Source: an uncultured Gilliamella sp.
GTDB taxonomy: Bacteria > Pseudomonadota > Gammaproteobacteria > Enterobacterales > Orbaceae
DNA length: 59,850 nucleotides
Assembly (NCBI GenBank): GCA_946480175.1
Contig: CAMLIK010000006.1
Coordinates: 1-59,850, forward strand
Direction: 5' to 3'
Shown here: positions 4,885-42,100 of the stretch, in pieces
Numbering within the stretch: position 1 is the stretch's first letter
Layout: each line of letters starts with the position of its first letter
Notes under the pieces: generated by a model
What the model saw: the letters and a program-made list of their open reading frames with translations, nothing else
Told to the model about the DNA's origin: nothing
The model's database searches: none
Made by a program: the position numbers and the translations under genes

Positions 4885-5003
4885 ATAAATTCAACATCAC
4901 AGATAAAAATTGGCAGTAAGTTTAAATGATTCTAAGTTGCGCTGCCACTTTTTTATCGTTAACATGCAATATTAAATTGGCATATACTTGTTTGGAAATA
5001 ATT

Positions 5004-6083
5004 ATGCAAAAGATCCTCAATGTAGCTTTAGACAATCGCAGTTATCCCATTACAATTGGTGAGAACTTACTTAGTCAATTTGAACATTTTAAACTGCATA
5101 ATGGTCAAAAAGTACTTATTGCCACAAATGACACCATTGCTCCAATTTATTTACAGCATCTAATTGATATGCTTGAAGCTAATGGCGCCAAAACAGATTT
5201 TGTTATAGTCCCTGATGGTGAAAAATACAAAACCATGGAAACATGGAATCAAATTTTAACCGCTTTACTTGCTAACAATCATACTCGAAGTAGTATACTT
5301 ATTGCCCTCGGTGGAGGGGTTATTGGTGATGTAGCCGGATTTGCGGCTTCTGCATATCAACGTGGAATTAAATTTATACAGGTTCCAACAACTCTATTAT
5401 CTCAAGTCGATTCTTCGGTTGGCGGTAAAACTGCTATTAATCATCCTCTAGGTAAAAATATGATTGGTGCATTTTATCAGCCTCAATCAGTCGTAATTGA
5501 TATTAATTGTTTAAAAACCTTACCACAAAGAGAGCTTTCTGCTGGCTTAGCTGAAGTAATTAAATATGGCATCATAATGGATAATGCATTTTTTAGTTGG
5601 TTAGAAACACATATTGATGATTTACTTAGTTTAAATGTAGATGCGTTAAGTTATTGTATTTATCGTTGCTGTGAATTAAAGGCTCAAGTGGTTGCCGCCG
5701 ATGAAACCGAACAAGATATGCGCGCTATTTTAAATCTTGGTCATACCTATGGGCATGCCATTGAAGCCGAGCTCGGCTATGGCAATTGGTTACATGGCGA
5801 AGCAGTTAGTGTTGGTATGTTAATGGCGTCACAAACAGCCAAATTGCTAGGCCTGTTGGCAGATAAAGATATTGAAAGAATAAAAAATTTATTAATTAAA
5901 GCTAAACTGCCAGTTAAAAGACCAGAACAGATGGCAATCGAATCTTATATTCCCCATATGTTACGAGATAAAAAAGTTATTTCTGGTAAGCTTCGGTTAG
6001 TAATTCCAACTAAAATTGGTCAGGTTGAAGTAATGGATGGAATAGAGAAAAGTGTGGTACTTGAGTCAATAAACAACTCATAA
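5004..6083 (+). CDS. aroB: 3-dehydroquinate synthase
   Basis: Second step of the shikimate pathway: converts DAHP to 3-dehydroquinate using NAD+ and a divalent metal. The 359-aa protein aligns with E. coli AroB along its whole length. Visible are [19 protein letters not shown] near 98, [19 protein letters not shown] near 122, and the metal ligands in the Glu of LAEVIKYG and in [10 protein letters not shown] and [10 protein letters not shown] place the start at ATG 5004, which has GGAA 7 nt upstream and matches the E. coli N-terminus. An in-frame ATG at 4926 would add 26 unrelated residues. aroF, which supplies its substrate, is 7 kb away in the same window. Confidence 0.95.
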
Positions 6084-6160: not shown

Positions 6161-6191
6161 ATAGACAATAAACTCAAGTATTATTGTCTAT
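6161..6191. repeat. Inverted repeat at the 3' end of the MFS gene
   Basis: Arms ATAGACAATA (6161-6170) and TATTGTCTAT (6182-6191) are perfect 10-bp complements with an 11-bp spacer. The right arm overlaps the stop codon of the transporter gene at 6181. This could be a 3'-end stabilising hairpin placed before the hairpin at 6127. There is no U run directly after it. Confidence 0.5.
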
Positions 6192-7398
6192 TCTTTAGTG
6201 ATTTATAGATTATATTTAATATTAAACCAACGAATGCCACTGAAATAGCGATATAAAACGCATAGGTATAACTTCCACCATTATTTGCCAAAATATCAGC
6301 GGTTACTTTGGGGGCAAAAAAGGCTGCTGAAGAATAGCCTATAAAAATGACACCATAGTTTACGCCTTGATTAACTGGACCATAATTTTCCATTACCATT
6401 GGCGGGAAAACGCCCATCACACCACCAAAACATAAACCTAACGCTATAATTCCTATTGCAAAACCTATTTGCGATGGTATATATAAAAACGATATAAAAG
6501 CAAAGATAATTACCAAAAAAATGATATTCAATGTTTTATTTCGTCCTAGTTTATCTGACACCGTCCCCCAAACTACACGCCCTGCACAATTACTTAGTGA
6601 ATATAAACTAACATAAAATGAGGCCACAACAGCTGTTAATCCAAACATTTGTTGCCCTATGCCAGAAGCATTTGATGCAATCATTAAACCTGAAAAAGCC
6701 CCTGTACCAAGCATAAAAAATATTAAGTAAAAATATGGAGTTTGTAACATTTCCAGCCAATTTTTATTAATAACAGATCCACCTTGTTGAGTATTAGTAG
6801 GAATCCAACCTTCTGGTTTATAATTAACCGGAGCAACTTTAATAAATAAACTCGCTACAATAACCACTACAAGATAAGAACATCCAAGTACTTGAAAAGC
6901 ATGCAGAACACCATAATTTTCTATTAGAAAATGGCCAATCGGTGCAGCAACAATTGATGCACCTCCCATACCTGCTGTAATAATTCCGGATGCAAGACCT
7001 TTTTTATCCGGGAAAAACCTTATTGTATTACTCAAACAACCAGAATAGGCCAATCCTTGGCCAAAACCGCTTAATAATCCATAAGTTACATACAACATAA
7101 TTGGACTGGTAACAAAACCTGTTAGAAAAAAACCAAGACCAAACAACAATCCGCCGATAACACTAGACCATTTTGCTAATCCTTTATCGGTCAAAAAGCC
7201 ACCTAATATCATAGGAATCGGACCAACTGCTGCATTAATTGAAAATGCAATCATGACATCGGCTTTACTCCAGTTTTTTGCAAGACTTAATGGCTCAGCA
7301 AACACACTAAAAGCATAAATTGCCCCAGTACAGAGTAAAATCGAAGTTGAAGCAATCAGCACTACCCATCGATTTATAGTATTACTTGTTTTCTCCAT
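6181..7398 (-). CDS. MFS transporter, oxalate/formate antiporter (OFA) family
   Basis: Twelve-helix inner-membrane carrier of the major facilitator superfamily. The N-terminus ([18 protein letters not shown]) and the motif [16 protein letters not shown] near residue 58 are typical of the oxalate:formate antiporter family, which moves small carboxylates. A second half starts near residue 215, with [18 protein letters not shown] matching the cytoplasmic loop motif. Length 405 aa is normal. Its ATG lies inside the end of the upstream flavoprotein gene (17-bp overlap), so the two are translationally coupled. By context it probably imports the unsaturated acid reduced by that enzyme, or exchanges it for the reduced product. 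The exact substrate cannot be read from sequence. Confidence 0.88.
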
Positions 7399-9838
7399 GA
7401 TTTATATCCTTCCTTAGATTTATGTCGTGTGAAGCTGTTTTTCCTGCAATTCGACCAAATGTAAAAATATCAGTTAGAGAGTTACCGCCCAAACGATTAC
7501 CAGCATGGATACCTCCTGCCACTTCACCTGCAGCATATAGACCTGAAATTTTATGTCCCTTACTATCTAATACATGAGTTTGTATATCAATTCTTAAACC
7601 ACCCATTGTATGATGCACTGCCGGTTTTCTTGGCGTTGCATAGAATGGCGGAATTTCAACTTTTAGATCAAACACATCTTTACCAAATTCAGGATCGTGT
7701 CCAGCATCAACATAAGCATTATAATCAGCAATAGTTTGTTTAAAGATTGTCGGATCCATTGCTAGTTTTTCAGCTAACTCTTCTAAGGTATTAGCACAAA
7801 ATAGCGTTCCGGCAGCAATTTGCTTATTAATTTTTTCTTGCGAAGTGTTGTAAGCCGTTTTTTTAATTTGCTCATCAGCAATTAAATAAAATAACCCACC
7901 ATTATCAATAGCAGCCTGAGTAAGCTTATCGCGACTACCATATTCATTCACAAATCGCTTACCTTGTTTGTTTACCATAATGAAATTTTGCGGGGGTACT
8001 TGTAATCCACTGAATAATGCACCTGTATCAGGATCGGAAACCGGCATCATTTGAGAAAATCCCATACCAACCAAATCAGCGCCAACACTTTGCCCTAAAA
8101 TAATACCATCGCCTGTAATAGCTGGTGAGTTAGAGGTTTTAATATCATCGTCAATCTCTGTCCAATAAGTATTATACTCTTTTAACATTTTAGTATTAGC
8201 ACCAAAACCGCCTGATGCCAGGATGACTGCATTAGCTTTAACAGTAATTTTTTTACCATTTAAACCAGTACCAATAACTCCAGATACATGTCCATCCTCG
8301 ACTATCAACTCTTTAACCGCCGTATCAGTAATGATAATACCACCATGATCTTCAACATATTTCTGCAAAGCAGAAACATATGCATAGCCTTCACTTTTTA
8401 ACGGTTTATGACCTCTACGCCATAAAGCACCAACTGGCATTGTCACGTCATGTTTGTCAAACTCAACACCAACATCTTCAAGCCACTTGACCGATTCTAA
8501 CGCCTCATCGGTTAAAATCTTAACCAAATCATATTGACCATAAATAATATTACCTAATTGGTCTGTACGTTTACCACCAAGATAAGTTTGGATACGATGT
8601 AATAATGCTGAATCGAACAAATATCCTGTTTTACCCGTATTTTCAGCTAAATAGTTGGTAATTTGTTGTTTTAACTCTTTAAAATCATCAAGATATTCAC
8701 TATCAATCGTTGACTCATCAATAGCTGAAATTTCCTGTAGAGTATGGCTTTCACCCGCAATAGCATCAAAGGTATTTTGCCATTGCGGATTTGCTGCATT
8801 CATTGGGCCGCCAGTCCGTACAGTATTACCACCAACTGCAGGAAATTTTTCAACAACAATTACCTTTTTACCTTCCTGCAAAATGCTTGCAGCAGCAGAT
8901 AATCCAGCCCCACCAGCACCAACAACAACTACATCAGTAGTAAATTGTGCGTCAGAAGTATCGACAGCACTCGGTGCCTTCGGTCTTTTACGTAATACAT
9001 CAGGATTAGCGCCTGCCATTTTTATTGCTTTAGCAACCCCGTCGATGACACCATTACTCGTTACCGAAGCACCTGATAAAATATCAACATTAAGCGTCTG
9101 ACCTTCAAGAATTTGTGAAGGAATACGCTTAAATACTACATCAGCAATTCCCTCTGATTCACCTTCAGTATCAATATCAATTGATTCAATACGATCAGTT
9201 GATAATGTAACAGCCATCGGTAAATCGCCATTATGCCCAGGAGCAGTTACATTATAGGTACCTGGTTCATAGGTGATTTCTTCCGGTACATTAAGTAAAT
9301 TAGCAATTTGGGTAAAACGCAAAAATCGTAAAAAGCAACTTTCTAGAAAATCAATAGTACGTTCTGATTTAATATTTCCCTTTTCATCAAACGCGTGATG
9401 AGCACGGCCAAGCAAAAATTCATATCCTGGCATAACGGTTGCATTAACACCAGGAGCATCAAGAATTTGGCGTAAATGTAATTGAGCGCGAGAAGAGCCT
9501 TGTACATCATAAGATGCACCTACAATCATCACCGGTTTACCATCAAAAGGATGTAAATTAAATGAGAGCCACTCAAGAATGCTTTTCAAAGCTGAAGGAA
9601 TAGAATGATTATGTTCTGGTGTTGCAATAATAACACCATCAGCCTCAATAATTTTATTATTAAAATACTGAATAATATCACAATTAGACTTATCATCTGA
9701 CTCATTAAACATAGGGACATCGGTCAATTCTAATATTTCAATTTCCGCTTTATGCATAAAATGTTTTTGCATAAATTGAAGTAGCAGTCTGTTATAAGAT
9801 TCTTGAGCATTAGTTCCAACAATTCCAATTAATTTCAT
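7382..9838 (-). CDS. Three-domain flavoprotein 2-enoate reductase, large subunit (CrdB/urocanate-reductase-like)
   Basis: Soluble flavoprotein of 818 aa with three fused domains. Residues 1-185 form an NAD(P)H-dependent FMN reductase ([34 protein letters not shown]). Residues about 195-275 form an FMN_bind domain with the flavinylation motif [10 protein letters not shown]; the acceptor position is Ser258. Residues about 300-810 form an FAD_binding_2 domain like fumarate and urocanate reductases, with [11 protein letters not shown] near 306, [12 protein letters not shown] (the proton-donor Arg region), HHTMGG and [11 protein letters not shown]. The HPT segment that binds the fumarate carboxylate in Shewanella fumarate reductase reads MPV here, so fumarate is an unlikely substrate. 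There is no signal peptide and no heme motif (CXXCH), so NAD(P)H is the likely electron source. I chose ATG 9838, which forms an ATGA overlap with the preceding gene; an upstream ATG at 9871 adds 11 unlikely residues. The exact 2-enoate is not known. Confidence 0.85.
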
Positions 9839-10461
9839 GATAATGCTCCTTCTTCTGATGCCTCTTTCCAACTGAATTTTTTATTTTGCTCGGTATTAAA
9901 TTTCCCTGTTGCAAGTAGTTGATTAGTTAAATTTACAAATAATAAAAATTCATCAAAACACTCTTCCAATTCTTTCACTTTATCTAAATAAACAAGATTA
10001 CCTTTTTCATCAAAAGCTTGCAGTGATTGACCCAATAAAAATTCAGAACTAGGCATAATACGAGCTTTCAATTCGGGAGCATCTAGGATTTGCCTTAAAT
10101 GAGCTTGGGCTCTTGAAGAACCTAACATACCATGCGATGCACCAACAATCATGACACATTTATTAATCAGTGGTCTGGTAGTATAAGACAACCATTCAAT
10201 AGCGCTTTTCAATGCGGCTGTTATTGAATGATCATATTCTGGAGTCGCGATAATAATTCCATCAGCTGATTCAATTTTATCTGATAACATTTTTACCGCT
10301 AAAGGAGGGGTTTTATCCTTCGGTTCATTAAATGCTGGTAACGATTTTATTTCACAAACTTCAATTTCGGCTTTATCTGAAAAATGCTCTCTCATATAAT
10401 GAAGTAATTTTCTATTAGTAGAACTATCTGAATTAGTTCCAACTATACCAACGAATTTCAC
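9835..10461 (-). CDS. NAD(P)H-dependent FMN reductase family protein, probable small subunit of the flavoprotein reductase (CrdA-like)
   Basis: Flavodoxin-fold FMN reductase of 208 aa. It is clearly homologous to the first 185 residues of the downstream flavoprotein: both have KxxGIVGTN at the start, IIATPE..HSI..ALKS near 75, [15 protein letters not shown] near 117, and AFDEKGN near 152. A tandem duplication is the simplest explanation. The start is GTG at 10461 with GAGG 8 nt upstream. Its stop overlaps the next start as ATGA, which suggests a 1:1 complex. In the NADH:cinnamate reductase CrdAB described from Vibrio, a small subunit of this type pairs with a three-domain large subunit. It might also be a free flavin or quinone reductase. 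Confidence 0.8.
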
Positions 10462-10705
10462 TTTATAACCTCACTTAGTACCTTGCGGTACAATTAAATC
10501 AATATCAAAATTTTAGTAATACAAATCCTTTAGTCGATAACACAAAGTGATAGATTGAGTTTTTGTTATATTAGGCCTATTGACTATTGTGTAAATCATT
10601 ATGTAAGCTAGTGTAGAACAGAAAAAAAGGTTTGTGAAATAGCTGATTAATTATGGGGTTATAAGTAATTTATTATAATGAGGTTTAATAAAAGAATTTA
10701 AACAA
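10462..10705. promoter_or_regulatory. Divergent control region of the reductase operon and its LysR gene
   Basis: 244 bp shared by divergent promoters. It contains a long interrupted inverted repeat at 10537-10569, a hairpin GTACC-loop-GGTAC at 10478-10491 just before the small-subunit ribosome binding site, and the palindrome TAGGCCTA at 10572-10579. In LysR systems the regulator normally binds such a shared region. No confident -35/-10 pair was assigned for either direction. Confidence 0.5.
10537..10569. promoter_or_regulatory. Candidate LysR operator: interrupted inverted repeat
   Basis: Arms ATAACACAAA (10537-10546) and TTTTTGTTAT (10560-10569) are complementary at 9 of 10 positions with a 13-bp spacer. 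The arm centres are 23 bp apart, about two helical turns. This fits a dimer-of-dimers site but not the classic single T-N11-A box. It is placed 76 bp upstream of the reductase small-subunit start. Confidence 0.4.
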
Positions 10706-11629
10706 ATGGCTAAAATTAATTCGCTCAGTATGTTGCAATACATTGATGTTTTACTCAAGCACGGCAATTACACCAAAGCTGCGCAGAATTTGTATATTTC
10801 TCAATCATATCTAACCCAAACAATAAAAAAAATTGAAAATGAACTGGGTATTGAGATTATTAATCGGCAAAGTACACCCTTACAACTAACTGAAGCTGGT
10901 AAGATTTATTATCAGTATTTAACATCATTAGTTAACGAACAAGAACAATTTAAAAGAAAAATCAAAAAATATACTGATACTGATTATAACGTCATTCAAA
11001 TTGGTGTATTACCTAGTTTAGGGACTTATCTACTGCCGCTATTTTTACCTAAATTTATAAATAAACATCCTGATATTAAAATAGAATTACATGAATATAT
11101 TCCTAAAAACAGTGAAGAAAAAACAGAGAATCAAATGCTTGATTTTTTTATAGGGCAAAATCCAGAAACAATATCCCAAAATTTAATTTGTCATAAATGT
11201 GGTAAGCATCGTTATTATGCATTGATACCTGAAACGTCAAAATTATACCGAAAAAAAGTTAATTCTAATGAATATAATCATAAATTCATGAAATCATTAT
11301 TACAAGAAAAGCTGATTTTGACTGCACATGGTTCAGCAATTCGTCAACAAGTTGATTATCTTATTCAAAAATACAAAATTCAACCCAATATTATTCTTGA
11401 AAGTAGTAACATTTTTACGCTTGTTGAATTAGCTAAAAAAGGACTAGGAATTACTTTTATTCCGGAAAGCGTTTGTATCAATGAAAAACCAAATGATTTA
11501 GCATATAATTTAATACCACTGCCTTTGGATCTCATTTCGTTGAGTTATTTTATTGCCTACTCTACTCATAAAATGCTAAGCAGTGTAGAAAAAGAGCTCA
11601 TTAACCTATTCATCTCTTCTATGCCATAA
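10706..11629 (+). CDS. LysR-family transcriptional regulator
   Basis: DNA-binding regulator of 307 aa. The N-terminal winged helix-turn-helix spans about residues 5-65 (YTKAAQNLYISQSYLTQTIK, LTEAGKIYYQYL). A periplasmic-binding-protein-like effector domain follows from about 90, beginning NVIQIGVLPSLGTYLLP. It is divergent from the FMN-reductase/flavoprotein/MFS operon and convergent with apbE, so it sits in the middle of the cassette it probably controls. The effector may be the organic acid substrate. By the usual behaviour of the family it may also repress its own gene. The product is AT-rich in codon use like its neighbours, giving no sign of recent transfer. Confidence 0.9.
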   Translation: MAKINSLSMLQYIDVLLKHGNYTKAAQNLYISQSYLTQTIKKIENELGIEIINRQSTPLQLTEAGKIYYQYLTSLVNEQEQFKRKIKKYTDTDYNVIQIGVLPSLGTYLLPLFLPKFINKHPDIKIELHEYIPKNSEEKTENQMLDFFIGQNPETISQNLICHKCGKHRYYALIPETSKLYRKKVNSNEYNHKFMKSLLQEKLILTAHGSAIRQQVDYLIQKYKIQPNIILESSNIFTLVELAKKGLGITFIPESVCINEKPNDLAYNLIPLPLDLISLSYFIAYSTHKMLSSVEKELINLFISSMP

Positions 11630-11675
11630 ATTATCTGGTTAATGACTAATCTTGATTAACAAAATCAGTTGTAGA

Positions 11676-12596
11676 CTAAGTCAATAACCCATTTGAACAA
11701 GCAAATTCTTTATTGGTGGTAATAACCATGCCTTCTATATTTGCTAATTGATTAATTTTTTTAATAGCATTCACAGGACTATAGCCATAGAGTTGTGTTG
11801 TCAAAATTTCGCCATCTATTGAATGAGTAGATACAATGGTTATGCTTTCGATTTCAGTTTCTACAGGATAACCCGTTTGACTATTAAAAATATGATGATA
11901 AGTTTTTCCATTATAATTAAATGTTCTTTCATAAAGACCAGATGTGACTGCTGATTGATTTTTAATCTTTAATACCTTAATTACATTACCACGAATTCGA
12001 AACGGGTTTTGAATACCTACTTGCCAAAATCCATCATCATGAAAAGGACACTCACCATAAGTTAATACATTACCCCCTAAATCAATAAATGCAGATTTTG
12101 CATTTTGTTTTTTAAAAATTTGCATTATTTTATCGGCAAAATATCCTTTAGCTAAAGCACCAAGATCAATGGCCATTCCTTTATATTTTAAAAATACCGA
12201 CTTATTCACCTCATCCAAAACAATATCATTAGGATCGATGAGAGTTAAAAGTTGCTTAATTTCTGAATCAGGTGGGTATCTAGCGTCATGAAATCCGACT
12301 CGCCATGCTTGGATAAGCGGACCAATTGCAATATTTAAAAAACTATTATTAATTAGACTTTGAGCCTTACCTATTTTAATCAAGGTAAAAAGATCTGATT
12401 TTACCGTAACAGGCTTAATACCGGCATTAAGATTGATTTGCATTAAATCTGAATTGCCACAATTTGCACTAAAACGACGCTCATAATCTATCAACTTTTT
12501 TTCAGCGATATCTAATAGATCTTTAGCATAATCATGTTCGACCCAAATTTGAATTATGGTTCCCATTAAATTGAGCAAACGCTTATCATTTTTCAT
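11676..12596 (-). CDS. apbE: ApbE-type FAD:protein FMN transferase, cytoplasmic form
   Basis: Flavin transferase that moves FMN from FAD onto a Ser/Thr of target flavoproteins, using Mg2+. The 306-aa protein shows the ApbE landmarks: MGTIIQI near 10, AIGPLIQAWRVG near 92, IDLGALAKGYFAD near 144, AFIDLGGNV near 169, TSGLYERTF near 217, HHIFNSQTGYPV near 231, and a metal-ligand Asp in SIDGEILTTQL. There is no signal peptide or lipobox, unlike the periplasmic lipoprotein ApbE that serves Nqr and Rnf, so it should act on cytoplasmic proteins. The 818-aa flavoprotein 2 kb away carries the acceptor motif, which makes it the obvious client. It faces the LysR gene tail to tail and is divergent from aroF. 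Confidence 0.9.
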   Translation of the reverse strand: MKNDKRLLNLMGTIIQIWVEHDYAKDLLDIAEKKLIDYERRFSANCGNSDLMQINLNAGIKPVTVKSDLFTLIKIGKAQSLINNSFLNIAIGPLIQAWRVGFHDARYPPDSEIKQLLTLIDPNDIVLDEVNKSVFLKYKGMAIDLGALAKGYFADKIMQIFKKQNAKSAFIDLGGNVLTYGECPFHDDGFWQVGIQNPFRIRGNVIKVLKIKNQSAVTSGLYERTFNYNGKTYHHIFNSQTGYPVETEIESITIVSTHSIDGEILTTQLYGYSPVNAIKKINQLANIEGMVITTNKEFACSNGLLT

Positions 12597-12780: not shown

Positions 12781-12848
12781 TATAACGTGTTTATGTATTT
12801 ATTCTTTTACATATAAAAAATATGAATGATTTTAACAAGGAAAATAAA

Positions 12849-13919
12849 ATGTTAAAAGACACACTAAATAATGTTCGAATAAGAGATGAGCACATGTTAG
12901 TTACACCGGAAGAAATTAAAAATCTTTATCCATTATCATTTGAATTAGAAAACCAAATTGCCTCTTCCAGACAAACCATTGTTGATATTCTAGAACGTCG
13001 TGATCATCGTTTACTGATTGTTTGCGGACCTTGTTCTATTCATGATACTAAAGCAGCGATTGAATATGCGCACAAACTAAAAAAACTATCTGATGAAGTA
13101 AAAGATAACTTATTTATTGTAATGCGTGTCTATTTTGAAAAACCGAGAACTACGGTTGGTTGGAAAGGTATGATCAATGACCCACATATGGACAGCTCGT
13201 TTGATATTGAACATGGTCTGAAAAAAGCTCGTAAATTACTTCTTGATATCACTAAGATCGGATTACCCATTGCGACCGAAGCATTAGACCCAAATACACC
13301 TCAATACCTTGGTGATTTAATCAGCTGGTCGGCTATTGGAGCCAGAACCACTGAATCACAAACCCACCGGGAAATGGCGTCGGGGTTATCAATGCCTGTT
13401 GGCTTTAAAAATGGTACAGATGGCAGTTTGGATGTGGCGATTAATGCCATGAAATCAGCTTCTATGGCTCATCGATTTGTGGGTATTAATCAGCAAGGGC
13501 AAGTTACCGTATTACAAACCTTAGGCAACCCGCACGGTCACGTAATCCTAAGAGGTGGAAAAGCACCTAATTTTGATGCTGAAAATGTTGCATTATGCGA
13601 ACTGCAAATGAATAAGGCAAAATTAGTACCTAACCTAATGATAGATTGTAGTCATGCCAATTCAAACAAAGATTATCGTAATCAACCAATTGTTGCTGAC
13701 TCAATTATTGAGCAAATTAAGCAAGGCAATAATTCAATCATCGGTGTCATGATAGAAAGTAATTTATCTGAAGGCAATCAACCCTCCGAACAACCAAAAG
13801 AAAATTTCAAATATGGGGTATCAGTTACTGACGCTTGCATTAACTTTGAAACAACTGAGCAATTATTGCGAAGAATGAATAATGATTTAGCACAGCCGTT
13901 ACAGAGTAGGAAAAAGTAA
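12849..13919 (+). CDS. aroF: DAHP synthase, tyrosine-sensitive type
   Basis: First enzyme of aromatic amino acid synthesis: joins phosphoenolpyruvate and erythrose 4-phosphate to DAHP. Among the three E. coli isozymes it is closest to AroF: LNNVRI..E at the start (AroF has LNNVHI), SFDIEHGL, GLPIATEALDP, HREMASGLSMPVGFKNGTDG and the ending SVTDACI. Asn8, tied to tyrosine feedback in AroF, is kept. I chose ATG 12849, preceded by AAGGA at 8 nt; it gives 356 aa, the E. coli length. An in-frame ATG at 12822 adds nine residues and lacks a ribosome binding site. Two TyrR-box matches lie upstream. Unlike in E. coli, tyrA does not follow; a terminator does. Confidence 0.94.
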   Translation: MLKDTLNNVRIRDEHMLVTPEEIKNLYPLSFELENQIASSRQTIVDILERRDHRLLIVCGPCSIHDTKAAIEYAHKLKKLSDEVKDNLFIVMRVYFEKPRTTVGWKGMINDPHMDSSFDIEHGLKKARKLLLDITKIGLPIATEALDPNTPQYLGDLISWSAIGARTTESQTHREMASGLSMPVGFKNGTDGSLDVAINAMKSASMAHRFVGINQQGQVTVLQTLGNPHGHVILRGGKAPNFDAENVALCELQMNKAKLVPNLMIDCSHANSNKDYRNQPIVADSIIEQIKQGNNSIIGVMIESNLSEGNQPSEQPKENFKYGVSVTDACINFETTEQLLRRMNNDLAQPLQSRKK

Positions 13920-36014: not shown

Positions 36015-36054
36015 TATTTCAGTATTGTTAGTATCCCAAGTAAAAGGAGTAGCC

Positions 36055-37410
36055 GTGTCTACCTCGATTTGGCAAGATTGTCTTTCTCAATTACAAGAAT
36101 CGCTTCCTACAACAGAATTCAACCTTTGGATTCGACCGTTACAAGTAGAGATGGTTGAGAACAAACTCTATATTTATGCGCCAAACAGATTTGTATTAGA
36201 TTGGGTGAAAAATAAATATTTAACAACTATTTCTCAATTATTGAATAATTTGTTAGATAATGATTCATTAAAATTATCTTTGGAAGTCGGTTCAACTGTA
36301 TCTGTAGAGAAAAAATCCGAGGTCAACCAATCTAAATCTGATGTTATGCCTTCTTGGAAGACAACAAAAGAGAGTAATAACCACACTTATTATTCAGGTA
36401 TTAACCATAAATACACTTTCAATAGCTTTGTTGAAGGTAAATCTAATCAACTTGCTGTTGCAGCGGCTAAACAAGTAGCCGAAAATCCAGGTAAAGCATA
36501 TAATCCTCTTTTTTTATATGGCTCAACAGGTTTAGGTAAAACTCACTTATTACATGCAGTTGGCAATGAGATTATGGCGAGTAAAGCTAACGCCAAAGTT
36601 GTTTATATGCATTCAGAACGATTCGTTCAAGACATGGTAAAAGCGTTACAAAATAATGCTATTGAAGAGTTTAAAAATTATTATCGTTCTGTTGATGCTC
36701 TACTTATTGACGATATCCAATTTTTTGCAAATAAAGAGCGTTCCCAAGAAGAGTTCTTCCATACATTTAACTCATTATTAGAAGGTAATCAACAAATCAT
36801 CCTAACATCTGATCGTTATCCTAAAGAAATTGATGGCGTTGAAGATCGCTTAAAATCGAGATTTGGTTGGGGATTAACCATTGCTATTGAACCACCCGAA
36901 CTTGAGACTCGAGTTGCTATTTTGATGAAAAAAGCCGAAGAAAACAAAATTAAACTACCTGAAGAGGTCGCTTTTTTCATTGCTAAACGATTACGCTCAA
37001 ATGTGCGAGAATTAGAAGGAGCACTTAATCGGGTTATTGCCAATGCTAATTTTACAGGAAAATCTATCACTATTGATTTTGTCAAAGATGCTTTAAAAGA
37101 TTTACTTGCCTTACAAGAAAAATTGGTTACTATTGAAAATATTCAAAAAACGGTTGCTGAATATTATAAAATTAAAGTCTCTGACTTATTATCTAAACGT
37201 CGGTCTCGTTCTGTTGCAAGGCCAAGACAAGTAGCAATGGCATTGGCGAAAGAGCTCACCAATAAAAGCTTGCCGGAAATCGGTGATGGTTTTGGTGGAA
37301 GAGATCATACAACTGTATTACATGCATGCCGAAAAATCGCAGAACTAAAAGAAGAAAGCAATGATATTAAAGAGGATTATTCCAATTTAATTCGAACATT
37401 ATCAACTTAA
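36055..37410 (+). CDS. dnaA: Chromosomal replication initiator DnaA
   Basis: AAA+ protein that binds DnaA boxes and opens oriC. The 451-aa product (E. coli 467) has domain I ([22 protein letters not shown]), a short linker around 85-115, Walker [14 protein letters not shown] near 160, Walker [10 protein letters not shown] near 221, the sensor/arginine finger region [10 protein letters not shown] near 272, and domain IV with [17 protein letters not shown] near 420. I chose GTG 36055, preceded by AAGGAG at 5 nt and matching the E. coli start; an in-frame start at 36025 lacks this. It leads dnaA-dnaN-recF-gyrB, all on the plus strand with short gaps. Confidence 0.97.
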
Positions 37411-37424
37411 AAAGAATTAACACT

Positions 37425-38528
37425 ATGAAATTTATTATAGATCGTGAAAAACTTATCAAACCATTGCAACTTGTTAGTGCACCACTAGGTAGTCGCCCTA
37501 CCCTACCTATTTTAGGTAATTTATTATTGCAGGTGAGTGAAAACACACTATCAATGACAGGGACGGATTTGGAAATTGAAATGATCTCTCACATTCCTCT
37601 AACCGAACCTTGTGAAGCAGGTGCAACGACAGTGCCAGCTAGAAAGTTTCTTGATATCTGTCGAAATCTTCCTAATGATGCGCAAATATTGATAAGCATT
37701 GACGATAATCGATTGATTATTCAATCAGGTCGAAGTAAATTTTCTTTATCTACACTACCTGCGTCAGATTTCCCTAATTTAGAAAATTGGCAAAGTGATG
37801 TTGAACTTTTTATACCGCAAAAAACAATCAAACGACTTATTGATGCAGTGCAATTTTCAATGGCGAACCAAGATGTTAGATATTATTTAAATGGTATGCT
37901 ATTCGAAATTGAAGATGGATTATTAAAAACAGTTGCAACTGATGGACATCGCCTAGCCGTATGTGCTCAACCTGTTGGTCAAAATATATCAGAAACCTGT
38001 TCAGTAATTTTACCAAGGAAAGGCGTAATTGAGCTTGCAAAACTTGTTGGTGATAACGATGAGCTTGTTAATATGCAAATTGGTAACAATAACTTACGTG
38101 TAAGTCTTGGTGATTTTACCTTTACTTCAAAACTCATTGATGGAAAATTCCCAGATTATAAACGTGTAATGCCTCGTAACCCTGATAAACCACTTGAAGT
38201 ATCATGTGAAGAACTTAGAAATGCCTTATCGCGAGTTGCGATTCTTTCAAATGAAAAATTTCGCGGCATAAGATTATATGTACATAGTAATCAGATAAAA
38301 ATTACCGCAAACAATCCAGAACAAGAAGAAGCAGAAGAAGTGATTGATGTAAAATATCAATCTCAAGAACTTGAGATTGGTTTTAATGTAACTTATTTAT
38401 TGGATATACTAAACACACTAAAATGTGATAGCGTACAATTATTATTAACTGATGCCACTTCAAGTGTGCAAATTGAAGATATCAACAACCAATCTGCAAC
38501 TTATGTTGTTATGCCTATGCGCTTATAA
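37425..38528 (+). CDS. dnaN: DNA polymerase III beta sliding clamp
   Basis: Ring-shaped processivity clamp of the replicative polymerase. The 367-aa product (E. coli 366) shows the three repeated clamp folds, with LGSRPTLPILGNLLLQV near 22, ATDGHRLAVC near 173, DGKFPDYKRVMPRNPDK near 242, and the C-terminal peptide TYVVMPMRL that forms part of the partner-binding pocket. It lies 14 bp after dnaA and is probably co-transcribed. Confidence 0.97.
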   Translation: MKFIIDREKLIKPLQLVSAPLGSRPTLPILGNLLLQVSENTLSMTGTDLEIEMISHIPLTEPCEAGATTVPARKFLDICRNLPNDAQILISIDDNRLIIQSGRSKFSLSTLPASDFPNLENWQSDVELFIPQKTIKRLIDAVQFSMANQDVRYYLNGMLFEIEDGLLKTVATDGHRLAVCAQPVGQNISETCSVILPRKGVIELAKLVGDNDELVNMQIGNNNLRVSLGDFTFTSKLIDGKFPDYKRVMPRNPDKPLEVSCEELRNALSRVAILSNEKFRGIRLYVHSNQIKITANNPEQEEAEEVIDVKYQSQELEIGFNVTYLLDILNTLKCDSVQLLLTDATSSVQIEDINNQSATYVVMPMRL

Positions 38529-38548
38529 TTGACGATCATTTAAAACTT

Positions 38549-38562
38549 CCGGCTTCGGCCGG
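38549..38562 (+). repeat. Small hairpin between dnaN and recF
   Basis: CCGGC-TTCG-GCCGG forms a 5-bp GC stem with a stable UUCG-type loop, 14 nt before the recF start. There is no U tract. It might act as an attenuator or ribosome brake and help keep RecF low. Confidence 0.45.
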
Positions 38563-38575
38563 CAACTTTACCAGC

Positions 38576-39646
38576 ATGATACTTTCTCAAATCAAAATTC
38601 ATCACTTTCGAAACATTGCTTATGCTCAATTAACATTATCGAATCATTTCAATTATATAGTTGGTGATAATGGTAGTGGAAAAACCAGCCTGCTTGAAGC
38701 AATTTATATGCTTGGCCATGGTCGAGCCTTTAGGCATATTCAATCTAACCGAATAATACAACATGAAAAACCTGAATTAATATTATTTAGCCAAATTGAA
38801 TCTTCACAACAAACTAGAACTATAGGTTTATCAAAAACCCGTCATAACGATAATACGATAAAAATTGATGGAGATGAGGGATTTCGCTTAACTGATTTAG
38901 CAAAGTTATTACCAATTCAACTTATTACACCAGAAGGATTTGATTTACTTACTGGAGGGCCTAAATATCGCCGCTCTTTTATAGATTGGGGTTGTTTTCA
39001 TCACTATCCTGAATTTGTAGCACTTTGGAATAACTTAAAACGCCTTTTTAAACAGCGTAATGCCTTATTAAAACAGTCATCAAACTATAATCAATTATTA
39101 CCTTGGGATAAAGAACTTGCACCAATTGCAGAAAAAATAAGTCAGATTAGAGCTGACTATAGCCAAAATATATTTCCTCAAATTATAGAAACTTGTCATG
39201 ATTTTCTACCAGAATATCAACTTAACTGCCAATATTACCAAGGTTGGGAACATGGCATCAATTATTCAGATATATTATATAGACAATTTGAAAGAGATAA
39301 GTTTATTAGTTATACCTCACAAGGTCCACATAAGGCAGATTTAAAGTTACGAATAGATAATATTCCTGTCGAAGATTTATTATCTCGCGGACAATTAAAA
39401 TTACTCATGTGTGCATTACGTTTGTCACAAGGTGAATATTTTTCAGAAAAAACGGGGCAATCATGTATTTATTTAATTGATGACTTTGCTTCTGAGCTGG
39501 ACAAAAATAAACGTAACTTACTAGCAAAACGATTAAAATCTGCTCATTCTCAAGTTTTTATTACAGCGGTTAATCAAGAGCAAATAACCCACATGATCGA
39601 TGAAAATGATAAGATTTTTCACATAAATTCTGGTATAATCTCTTAA
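38576..39646 (+). CDS. recF: DNA replication and repair protein RecF
   Basis: SMC-like ATPase that helps load RecA at gaps in the RecFOR pathway. The 356-aa product (E. coli 357) has Walker A GDNGSGKTSLLEAIY near residue 30, the signature LSRGQLKLLMCALRLSQG near 265 and Walker B CIYLIDDFASELD near 297. The start ATG is that at which E. coli similarity begins. No clear Shine-Dalgarno is seen, and a GC hairpin lies just upstream. Confidence 0.96.
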   Translation: MILSQIKIHHFRNIAYAQLTLSNHFNYIVGDNGSGKTSLLEAIYMLGHGRAFRHIQSNRIIQHEKPELILFSQIESSQQTRTIGLSKTRHNDNTIKIDGDEGFRLTDLAKLLPIQLITPEGFDLLTGGPKYRRSFIDWGCFHHYPEFVALWNNLKRLFKQRNALLKQSSNYNQLLPWDKELAPIAEKISQIRADYSQNIFPQIIETCHDFLPEYQLNCQYYQGWEHGINYSDILYRQFERDKFISYTSQGPHKADLKLRIDNIPVEDLLSRGQLKLLMCALRLSQGEYFSEKTGQSCIYLIDDFASELDKNKRNLLAKRLKSAHSQVFITAVNQEQITHMIDENDKIFHINSGIIS

Positions 39647-39676
39647 ATATACAAAATGATATAAATAATCAAATAA

Positions 39677-42100
<2,424 letters not shown>

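Follow-up and report, generated by a model that had tools for sequence, protein, structure and literature searches.

The described enzymes closest to the locus considered here are HcrAB, the hydroxycinnamate reductase of lactic acid bacteria, and CrdAB of Vibrio ruber, reportedly a reduced nicotinamide adenine dinucleotide (NADH):cinnamate reductase of similar build. In Lactiplantibacillus plantarum WCFS1 the genes hcrR, hcrA, hcrB and hcrC are printed with lengths of 315, 204, 812 and 186 amino acids (aa), respectively (PMC11126511). Discussion of electron outlets in Gilliamella has centred on cytochrome bd and a soluble NADH-dependent fumarate reductase (PMC11325843). A stretch of 59,850 nucleotides from an uncultured Gilliamella sp. 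(contig CAMLIK010000006.1), as a whole called the window in what follows, carries at positions 6181-12596 a cassette of five genes that is very probably a self-contained hydroxycinnamate reductase system of the HcrAB/CrdAB kind, acquired from Enterococcus-like Lactobacillales and inserted between aroB and aroG. Its probable reaction is the NADH-dependent reduction of hydroxycinnamic acids from plants, p-coumarate among them. While the enzyme type is already known, its occurrence in a Gilliamella host is unexpected and its horizontal history is unusually clear.

Gene Content and Domain Architecture

The five reading frames that the initial annotation had placed side by side are all present (Table 1), and their products score far over the Pfam cut-offs: the carrier with MFS_1 (131 bits), the large protein with FMN_red (124), FMN_bind (47) and FAD_binding_2 (233), the small protein with FMN_red (125), the regulator with HTH_1 (58) and LysR_substrate (96), and the maturase with ApbE (231). 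This order is kept in other Gilliamella and, with all five genes, in nine loci outside the genus, so that the cassette is not a chance neighbourhood. The open reading frame of the large protein, as called, starts at a TTG (position 9871) and has 829 aa. The ATG at 9838 is probably the true start and the TTG is unlikely to be used: the ATG overlaps the stop codon of the small subunit as ATGA, and the FMN_red match, which begins at residue 1 of the small subunit, begins at residue 12 of the 829-aa frame, that is, at residue 1 counted from the ATG. The large gene in turn overlaps the carrier frame by 17 bases. Judged from the starts of the Pfam matches alone (residue 11 in ApbE, residue 1 in the FMN_red domain), there is little room for a signal peptide. 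The ApbE protein aligns with the solved flavin mononucleotide (FMN) transferases 7esa and 4ifu.

The build is that of the heterodimeric Hcr/Crd enzymes, with a three-domain large subunit and a separate FMN_red subunit encoded directly upstream, a flavinylation motif in the FMN_bind domain together with an ApbE in the same cell (flavinylation itself being predicted), and a catalytic Arg/His/Arg set that is retained while the site for a second carboxylate is gone. The large protein has an FMN_red domain at its N-terminus and contains no CXXCH, in agreement with the initial annotation, which had reported no haem motif; a haem-linked flavocytochrome c fumarate reductase is ruled out on both grounds. 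Architecture, active-site columns and family tree agree with the earlier proposal of an NAD(P)H-dependent 2-enoate reductase of heterodimeric CrdAB build.

Active Site, Predicted Reaction and Alternative Readings

Residues 252-258 of the large protein (DILSGAS) correspond to the flavinylation motif D-x-x-[ST]-G-A-[ST] (for its definition see PMC12052999), which is present in 68 of 69 family members. In the alignment with the fumarate reductase Fcc3, R636, H742 and R782 occupy the positions of R402, H504 and R544 and are invariant in all 69 relatives. Conversely, H365, E378 and R381 of Fcc3, which we take to bind the second carboxylate of fumarate, are replaced in the window by M598, G611 and P615. 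Two further residues, F609 (69/69 relatives) and Q613 (68/69), set this group apart from three OYE-type proteins of Vibrio and Gilliamella in the comparison, which have L and I in their place. The loss of the second-carboxylate site, taken with F609 and Q613, fits an aryl monocarboxylic acid as the presumed occupant of the pocket.

From a biochemical perspective, NADH would reduce the FMN of the FMN_red domains, with the small subunit as the predicted partner of the N-terminal domain in the large subunit. Electrons would then pass to an FMN bound covalently to Ser258 of the FMN_bind domain by the neighbouring ApbE, and from there to flavin adenine dinucleotide (FAD). A hydride from FAD, with Arg636 as the putative proton donor, would saturate the C=C bond of an aryl monocarboxylic acid (p-coumarate, caffeate or ferulate) held by His742 and Arg782. 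The MFS carrier would import the acid or export the phenylpropionate, the LysR protein, acting at the block at 10632-10676, would switch the operon on in response to the acid, and the whole cassette may serve as a fermentative electron sink and a detoxification route. The initial annotation had offered substrate, induction and electron-sink role as inferences, and they keep that standing here.

The alternative that survives best is a 2-enoate reductase of the same build acting on another monocarboxylic acid, such as acrylate, urocanate, an indole- or imidazole-acrylate or an acid specific to pollen. Vibrio plasmid proteins of a kind that we take to be acrylate reductases are 55-56% identical to the FMN_bind and FAD part of the large subunit, and the carrier is of a general monocarboxylate type; against this, F609 and Q613 follow the Hcr/Crd group where the OYE-type Vibrio protein has L and I (the urocanate reductase pocket lying outside this alignment), and the large subunit clusters with the HcrB type of Lactiplantibacillus, so that another substrate class appears improbable. 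It is far less probable that the cassette encodes an ApbE-loaded NAD(P)H:quinone or azo/flavin reductase, in which the FAD domain would be a mere electron relay and the function detoxification and not energy metabolism; the FMN_red domains do resemble chromate, azo and quinone reductases, but the FAD domain has an invariant catalytic Arg and invariant carboxylate-binding residues, which would not be expected of a mere relay. The weakest candidate, a soluble NADH:fumarate reductase of the Klebsiella type, draws on the best solved-structure matches, which are flavocytochrome c fumarate reductases, but is scarcely credible and in effect ruled out by M598, G611 and P615 in the columns of H365, E378 and R381. 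A separate OYE-type protein of this genome, encoded next to a DASS anion symporter and an ApbE of its own, has retained H, E and R.

The Regulator and the Operator-Like Block

The gap between the LysR gene and the small-subunit gene holds a block whose consensus is ATAACAAATTNNTTAT-N6-ATAATTAAATAAATATTTCACAA. The window matches it at 32 of 37 positions, and none of 200 shuffles (first-order Markov resamples, 200 per region) did as well; for the palindrome half alone the match is 13/14, with 1 shuffle of 200 as good. Among 42 such gaps, a set that includes duplicates and near-copies (e.g., L024/L147, L026/L143 and L034/L113), 34 match the block at 30-37 of 37 positions with 0/200 shuffles as good, figures that exclude an effect of base composition and do not amount to an independent discovery, as mostly the same sequences made up the alignment that gave the consensus. 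The full block is missing from the other eight gaps, for which 2 to 150 of 200 shuffles did as well; they belong to L062, four clostridial and three gammaproteobacterial loci. In all of these but L062 the palindrome persists at 13-14 of 14 positions (0 or 1 of 200 shuffles), while in L062 it stands at 11/14 (19/200). Taken alone the palindrome is also weak in some lactobacilli, with 10/14 in L041 (111/200), 11/14 in L034/L113 (71-72/200) and 11/14 in L112 (18/200). A palindrome beside a divergent LysR gene is a typical LysR site, and this LysR-type palindrome is conserved across phyla. A pattern for the main part of the block found no second copy in the window's own genome with up to 3 mismatches.

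Horizontal Origin

With the FMN_red domains as query, 84,980 species genomes yielded 157 candidate loci, of which the best 80 are considered here. Among the matches listed, the order ApbE, divergent LysR, small subunit, large subunit and MFS carrier recurs in four Enterococcus/Companilactobacillus loci and two Gilliamella. The genes of Enterococcus termitis, a species that comes from termites, are 84% (large subunit), 74% (small subunit), 62% (LysR), 59% (ApbE) and 74% (MFS) identical to those of the window. The complete cassette is also found in five of six further Lactobacillales genomes, the sixth (G676) having a split large gene and no MFS gene in the stretch. In an even draw of 395 Lactobacillales genomes, 57 give a match at E<=1e-200; in 38 of these it runs from residue 1-2 to at least residue 719 (in one with five stops), and in 19 it begins only at about residue 165-191. 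A search of the class to which Gilliamella belongs (369 genomes drawn evenly, E<=1e-60) returned only the window's own genome, from a sample so sparse that it missed the Vibrio, Aeromonas and Klebsiella relatives.

In a tree of 69 large subunits, built by a quick method with the Shimodaira-Hasegawa-like approximate likelihood ratio test (SH-aLRT; 95 taken as the mark of strong support), the 13 Gilliamella rows cluster together (support 100) and sit within a 19-row group that includes the Enterococcus types (93, below the mark); a 34-row group adds the Lactiplantibacillus loci L140 and L141 (90, likewise below it). The three gammaproteobacterial rows fall elsewhere, in a group with Clostridia (100). 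In a reduced tree of 51 rows, a 16-row set around Gilliamella reaches 95. An approximately unbiased (AU) test, made on a quick tree of these 51 rows, rejected a tree in which Gilliamella is forced together with the Vibrio, Aeromonas and Klebsiella rows (p 1.5e-42), the groups having been chosen after the 69-row quick tree had been seen. Common descent with the gammaproteobacterial Crd-like loci is rejected by this test, and Gilliamella apparently acquired the cassette from an Enterococcus-like member of the Lactobacillales. The likeness to Vibrio CrdAB proposed in the initial annotation consequently holds for the enzyme type and fails for descent, since both tree and AU test place the cassette with Enterococcus/Lactobacillales and not with the Vibrio-type loci. 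The nearest characterised relative that can be compared by sequence type is lactic-acid-bacterial HcrAB (69% and 67% identity to locus L140 for the large and small subunit), rather than Vibrio CrdAB.

Distribution and Insertion Site Within Gilliamella

The genome that contains the window has 2.54 Mb in 173 contigs and is 86% complete. The cassette is present in 13 of 35 Gilliamella genomes, which rules out a recent acquisition by this strain alone. It is flanked by aroB and aroG in 12 of the 13 carriers, the contig of the remaining one (G016) ending just past ApbE. In 20 of the 22 genomes without it (G010 and G017 not being scorable) aroB and aroG lie 221-1387 bases apart, and these 20 gaps, searched for cassette remnants only, contain none at E<=1e-3. 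Carriage of the cassette changes 6 times on each of the aroB, aroG and gyrB trees, and at least 3 changes are forced by well-supported branches; the simplest reading is a single gain followed by several losses, with exchange across the flanks as a possible alternative. One genome, G015 (L177), looks like a mixed assembly, with two aroB and two gyrB copies from different lineages. The large subunits of Gilliamella G014 and G016 are identical to those of Gilliamella wkB171 and wkB108. Both strains have manA, which among bumble-bee strains is described only from Gris1-4 and Imp1-6 (PMC5090037), and by implication they are honey-bee strains.

The MFS Carrier and the Published oxlT Gene

The carrier passes the NCBIfam model NF049980 (SfMCT, a lactate-type monocarboxylate carrier) with 421 bits against a cut-off of 320, and stays below the cut-offs of the oxalate/formate models TIGR04259 (162 bits, cut-off 335) and TIGR00890 (230 bits, cut-off 375). 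An identity as the oxalate:formate antiporter OxlT is not supported by these scores, and the protein is a probable monocarboxylate (hydroxycinnamate/phenylpropionate) transporter. The initial annotation was right in assigning a transporter to the cassette, although by family this carrier is of the lactate type and not specific to aromatic acids.

A published survey reports oxlT, unaccompanied by any oxalate metabolism, from 32 of 95 Gilliamella genomes, every one of A. mellifera origin (PMC11325843). Across the 35 Gilliamella genomes, matches to the carrier at E<=1e-8 are confined to the 13 cassette carriers' own copies and one 24% match in G005. Since the carrier is nearly the sole OxlT-like protein in the genus, the published oxlT is probably the carrier of this cassette, a correspondence drawn from these genus-wide matches and not from the published gene list.

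Coordinates and Neighbouring Genes

The features of the cassette and its borders are collected in Table 1. The name aroG for the DAHP (3-deoxy-D-arabino-heptulosonate 7-phosphate) synthase gene is presumed from its sequence and from general knowledge. The genes dnaA and gyrB lie at window positions 36025-42100, with the cassette about 23 kb from dnaA.

Table 1. Features of the cassette and its flanks in the window.
Feature	Position	Strand	Basis
aroB, left border of the insertion site	4926..6083	+	aroB and aroG 221-1387 bases apart in 20 of 22 genomes without the cassette
MFS carrier, fifth cassette gene	6181..7398	-	Pfam MFS_1; NCBIfam NF049980 SfMCT
Large subunit, HcrB/CrdB type	7382..9838	-	Pfam FMN_red + FMN_bind + FAD_binding_2
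Substrate-site codons M598, F609, S610, G611, Q613, P615, R636, H742, R782	7493..8047	-	Alignment with Fcc3 fumarate reductase and paralogues
Predicted flavinylation motif DILSGAS, putative FMN acceptor Ser258	9065..9085	-	D-x-x-[ST]-G-A-[ST]
Small subunit, HcrA/CrdA type, GTG start	9835..10461	-	Pfam FMN_red; 67% to Lactiplantibacillus HcrA-type protein
Operator-like block in the LysR/small-subunit gap: ATAATAAATTACTTAT, six bases, ATAATTAATCAGCTATTTCACAA	10632..10676	-	Consensus match
LysR-type regulator, divergent, HcrR-like	10706..11629	+	Pfam HTH_1 + LysR_substrate; 50% to Lactiplantibacillus LysR
ApbE, FAD:protein FMN transferase	11676..12596	-	Pfam ApbE match (231 bits) beginning at residue 11
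DAHP synthase gene (taken as aroG), right border of the insertion site	12822..13919	+	aroB and aroG 221-1387 bases apart in 20 of 22 genomes without the cassette

Paralogues and Other Flavoprotein Relatives

The window's own genome encodes on contig C87 a 922-aa paralogue with OYE, FMN_bind and FAD_binding_2 domains that keeps the H, E and R of the Fcc3 site and is likely the fumarate reductase of this genome. It forms a set with an ApbE of its own and a DASS anion symporter (L017 1167-6464). A third paralogue occurs in Gilliamella G026 and G016 (L016 3407-7460 and L015 5499-8534; 1003-1011 aa) and resembles a Vibrio plasmid protein; by Pfam the copy in L016 has OYE, FMN_bind and FAD_binding_2 domains, and the 316-aa frame adjoining it was named ApbE-like by eye.

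Searched with the large subunit, plasmids gave no record covering 80% of the query, and only OYE-type and short relatives. The short relatives, which consist of FMN_bind and FAD_binding_2 only and are 60-66% identical, lie on Aerococcus and Limosilactobacillus plasmids (L021 4989-6860 and L023 5013-6866), the one from Limosilactobacillus adjoining a LysR gene. The small subunit led to an Enterococcus faecium element (L020 5020-7846) in which a small FMN_red protein is paired with a second protein of FMN_red and PAS_10 domains; these domains rule out a truncated HcrB. The second protein ends in three DAV[ST]SAS stretches, possibly multiple flavinylation sites. Similar pairs with a partner of 393-472 aa are found in Bacillota, often beside ApbE, and account for 52 of the best 80 of the 157 loci when counted by protein length alone, the domain scan of this type of pair having covered the E. 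faecium protein only.

Physiological Meaning

The insect-gut setting supposed in the initial annotation agrees with the host, as Gilliamella is known from bee guts (PMC11325843). The words FMN, flavocytochrome, aromatic, ApbE, flavin and phenol are absent from the main text of the 95-genome survey of Gilliamella energy metabolism (PMC11325843), and no report of hydroxycinnamate reduction by Gilliamella was found in the titles and abstract openings searched. No phenolic acid decarboxylase was found in the 35 Gilliamella genomes, some of which are incomplete. The bee gut community is described as using phenolamides, and pollen-medium cultures of G. apicola ESL0169 show a rise in an ion annotated as hydroxyphenylpropionate, which S. 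alvi uses (PMC5726620).

Taken together, these elements allow a wider scenario, which we put forward tentatively, as one somewhat more likely to fail in some part than to hold in full. Honey-bee Gilliamella would have gained a complete, self-regulated hydroxycinnamate sink from an insect-gut, Enterococcus-like donor; the p-coumaroyl and caffeoyl units of pollen phenolamides would be turned into hydroxyphenylpropionates, the presumed compounds that build up when G. apicola is cultured and that Snodgrassella takes up; and the published 'oxalate:formate antiporter' would be an aryl-acid carrier. The cassette may in this way tie up two published loose ends. If the scenario is true, a diet-derived electron acceptor unnamed in the main text of the 95-genome survey (PMC11325843) is available to a dominant gut symbiont of honey bees, pollen chemistry is tied both to redox balance and to cross-feeding of Snodgrassella, and the oxalate-uptake idea for the oxlT gene is replaced. 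Moreover, the locus would be a clean case of regulator, operator, enzyme, maturase and carrier moving between phyla as one unit. As strains with and without the cassette exist, the idea is directly testable.

Several points weigh against the scenario or against parts of the hydroxycinnamate reading itself. At m/z 165.055, hydroxyphenylpropionate is indistinguishable from its isomer phenyllactate. The authors of the bee study consider flavonoids or aromatic amino acids for such ions in bees, name Firm-4 and Firm-5 for them in mono-colonised bees, and assign phenolamide use to Firm-5, Firm-4 and Bifidobacterium (PMC5726620). On the side of the enzyme, HcrB homologues are reported not always to match the phenotype, and cinnamate is described as an inducer of HcrB that was not a substrate in the reported assays (PMC10295242), while Weissella cibaria carries out the same overall reaction by a coenzyme A (CoA) route without hcrAB (PMC13101492). 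The best family model of the transporter is that of a lactate carrier. The MFS gene is intact in 11 of the 13 cassette genomes and decayed in G032 and G007, so that the carrier is dispensable; the decayed copies (L019 8241-8919 and L142 4553-4804) accompany reductase frames that are still open. Finally, the cassette is patchy within Gilliamella and is consequently not essential to the genus.

Comparison With Known Systems

With the NADH:fumarate reductase of the Klebsiella type the window protein has in common that it is a soluble flavoprotein predicted to be flavinylated by a cytoplasmic ApbE (PMC12052999; PMC11325843). The Gilliamella protein that we take for this reductase possesses an OYE-type N-terminal domain and fumarate-specific residues; the window protein has neither.

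For CrdAB, the comparison rests on loci of Vibrio sp. HA2012, Aeromonas sp. RU39B and Klebsiella sp. BIGb0407, taken as CrdAB-like. They resemble the window in the large subunit (67-68%) and in having LysR and ApbE genes alongside, but their ApbE is oppositely oriented, no such MFS gene was matched within the stretch, and they belong to a separate branch with Clostridia, a single clade with Gilliamella being rejected.

The comparison with L. plantarum HcrAB was made through the Lactiplantibacillus locus L140, matched to the published gene lengths: its LysR, small, large (from an internal ATG) and fourth genes encode 315, 204, 812 and 186 aa. A full-length relative is found in 14 of 21 Lactiplantibacillus genomes. 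L140 is like the window in the large subunit (69%), the small subunit (67%), the divergent LysR (50%) and the operator block (33 of 37 positions). It differs, as does L141, in that the stretches of 11.5-12 kb contain no match to the ApbE or MFS of the window; where the window cassette has these two genes Lactiplantibacillus has HcrC (186 aa), which matched neither Pfam (E<=0.001) nor NCBIfam (E<=1e-10). In both loci LysR is divergent and lies upstream of the small subunit (L140 3035-3982, L141 2544-3491), whereas hcrR is described as downstream of hcrB and cotranscribed (PMC10295242). L. plantarum is moreover, unlike Gilliamella, a Gram-positive homofermenter.

The loci of Enterococcus termitis, Enterococcus sp. 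PF1-24, E. casseliflavus and Companilactobacillus hulinensis share with the window all five genes, in an unchanged order and orientation. To our knowledge none of these cassettes has been characterised so far. Beside the cassette, no aroB or aroG match was found in the six further Lactobacillales stretches examined, the four named loci standing outside that check. Like the window, these four loci carry the operator block (35-37 of 37 positions); unlike it, they lie in Bacillota.

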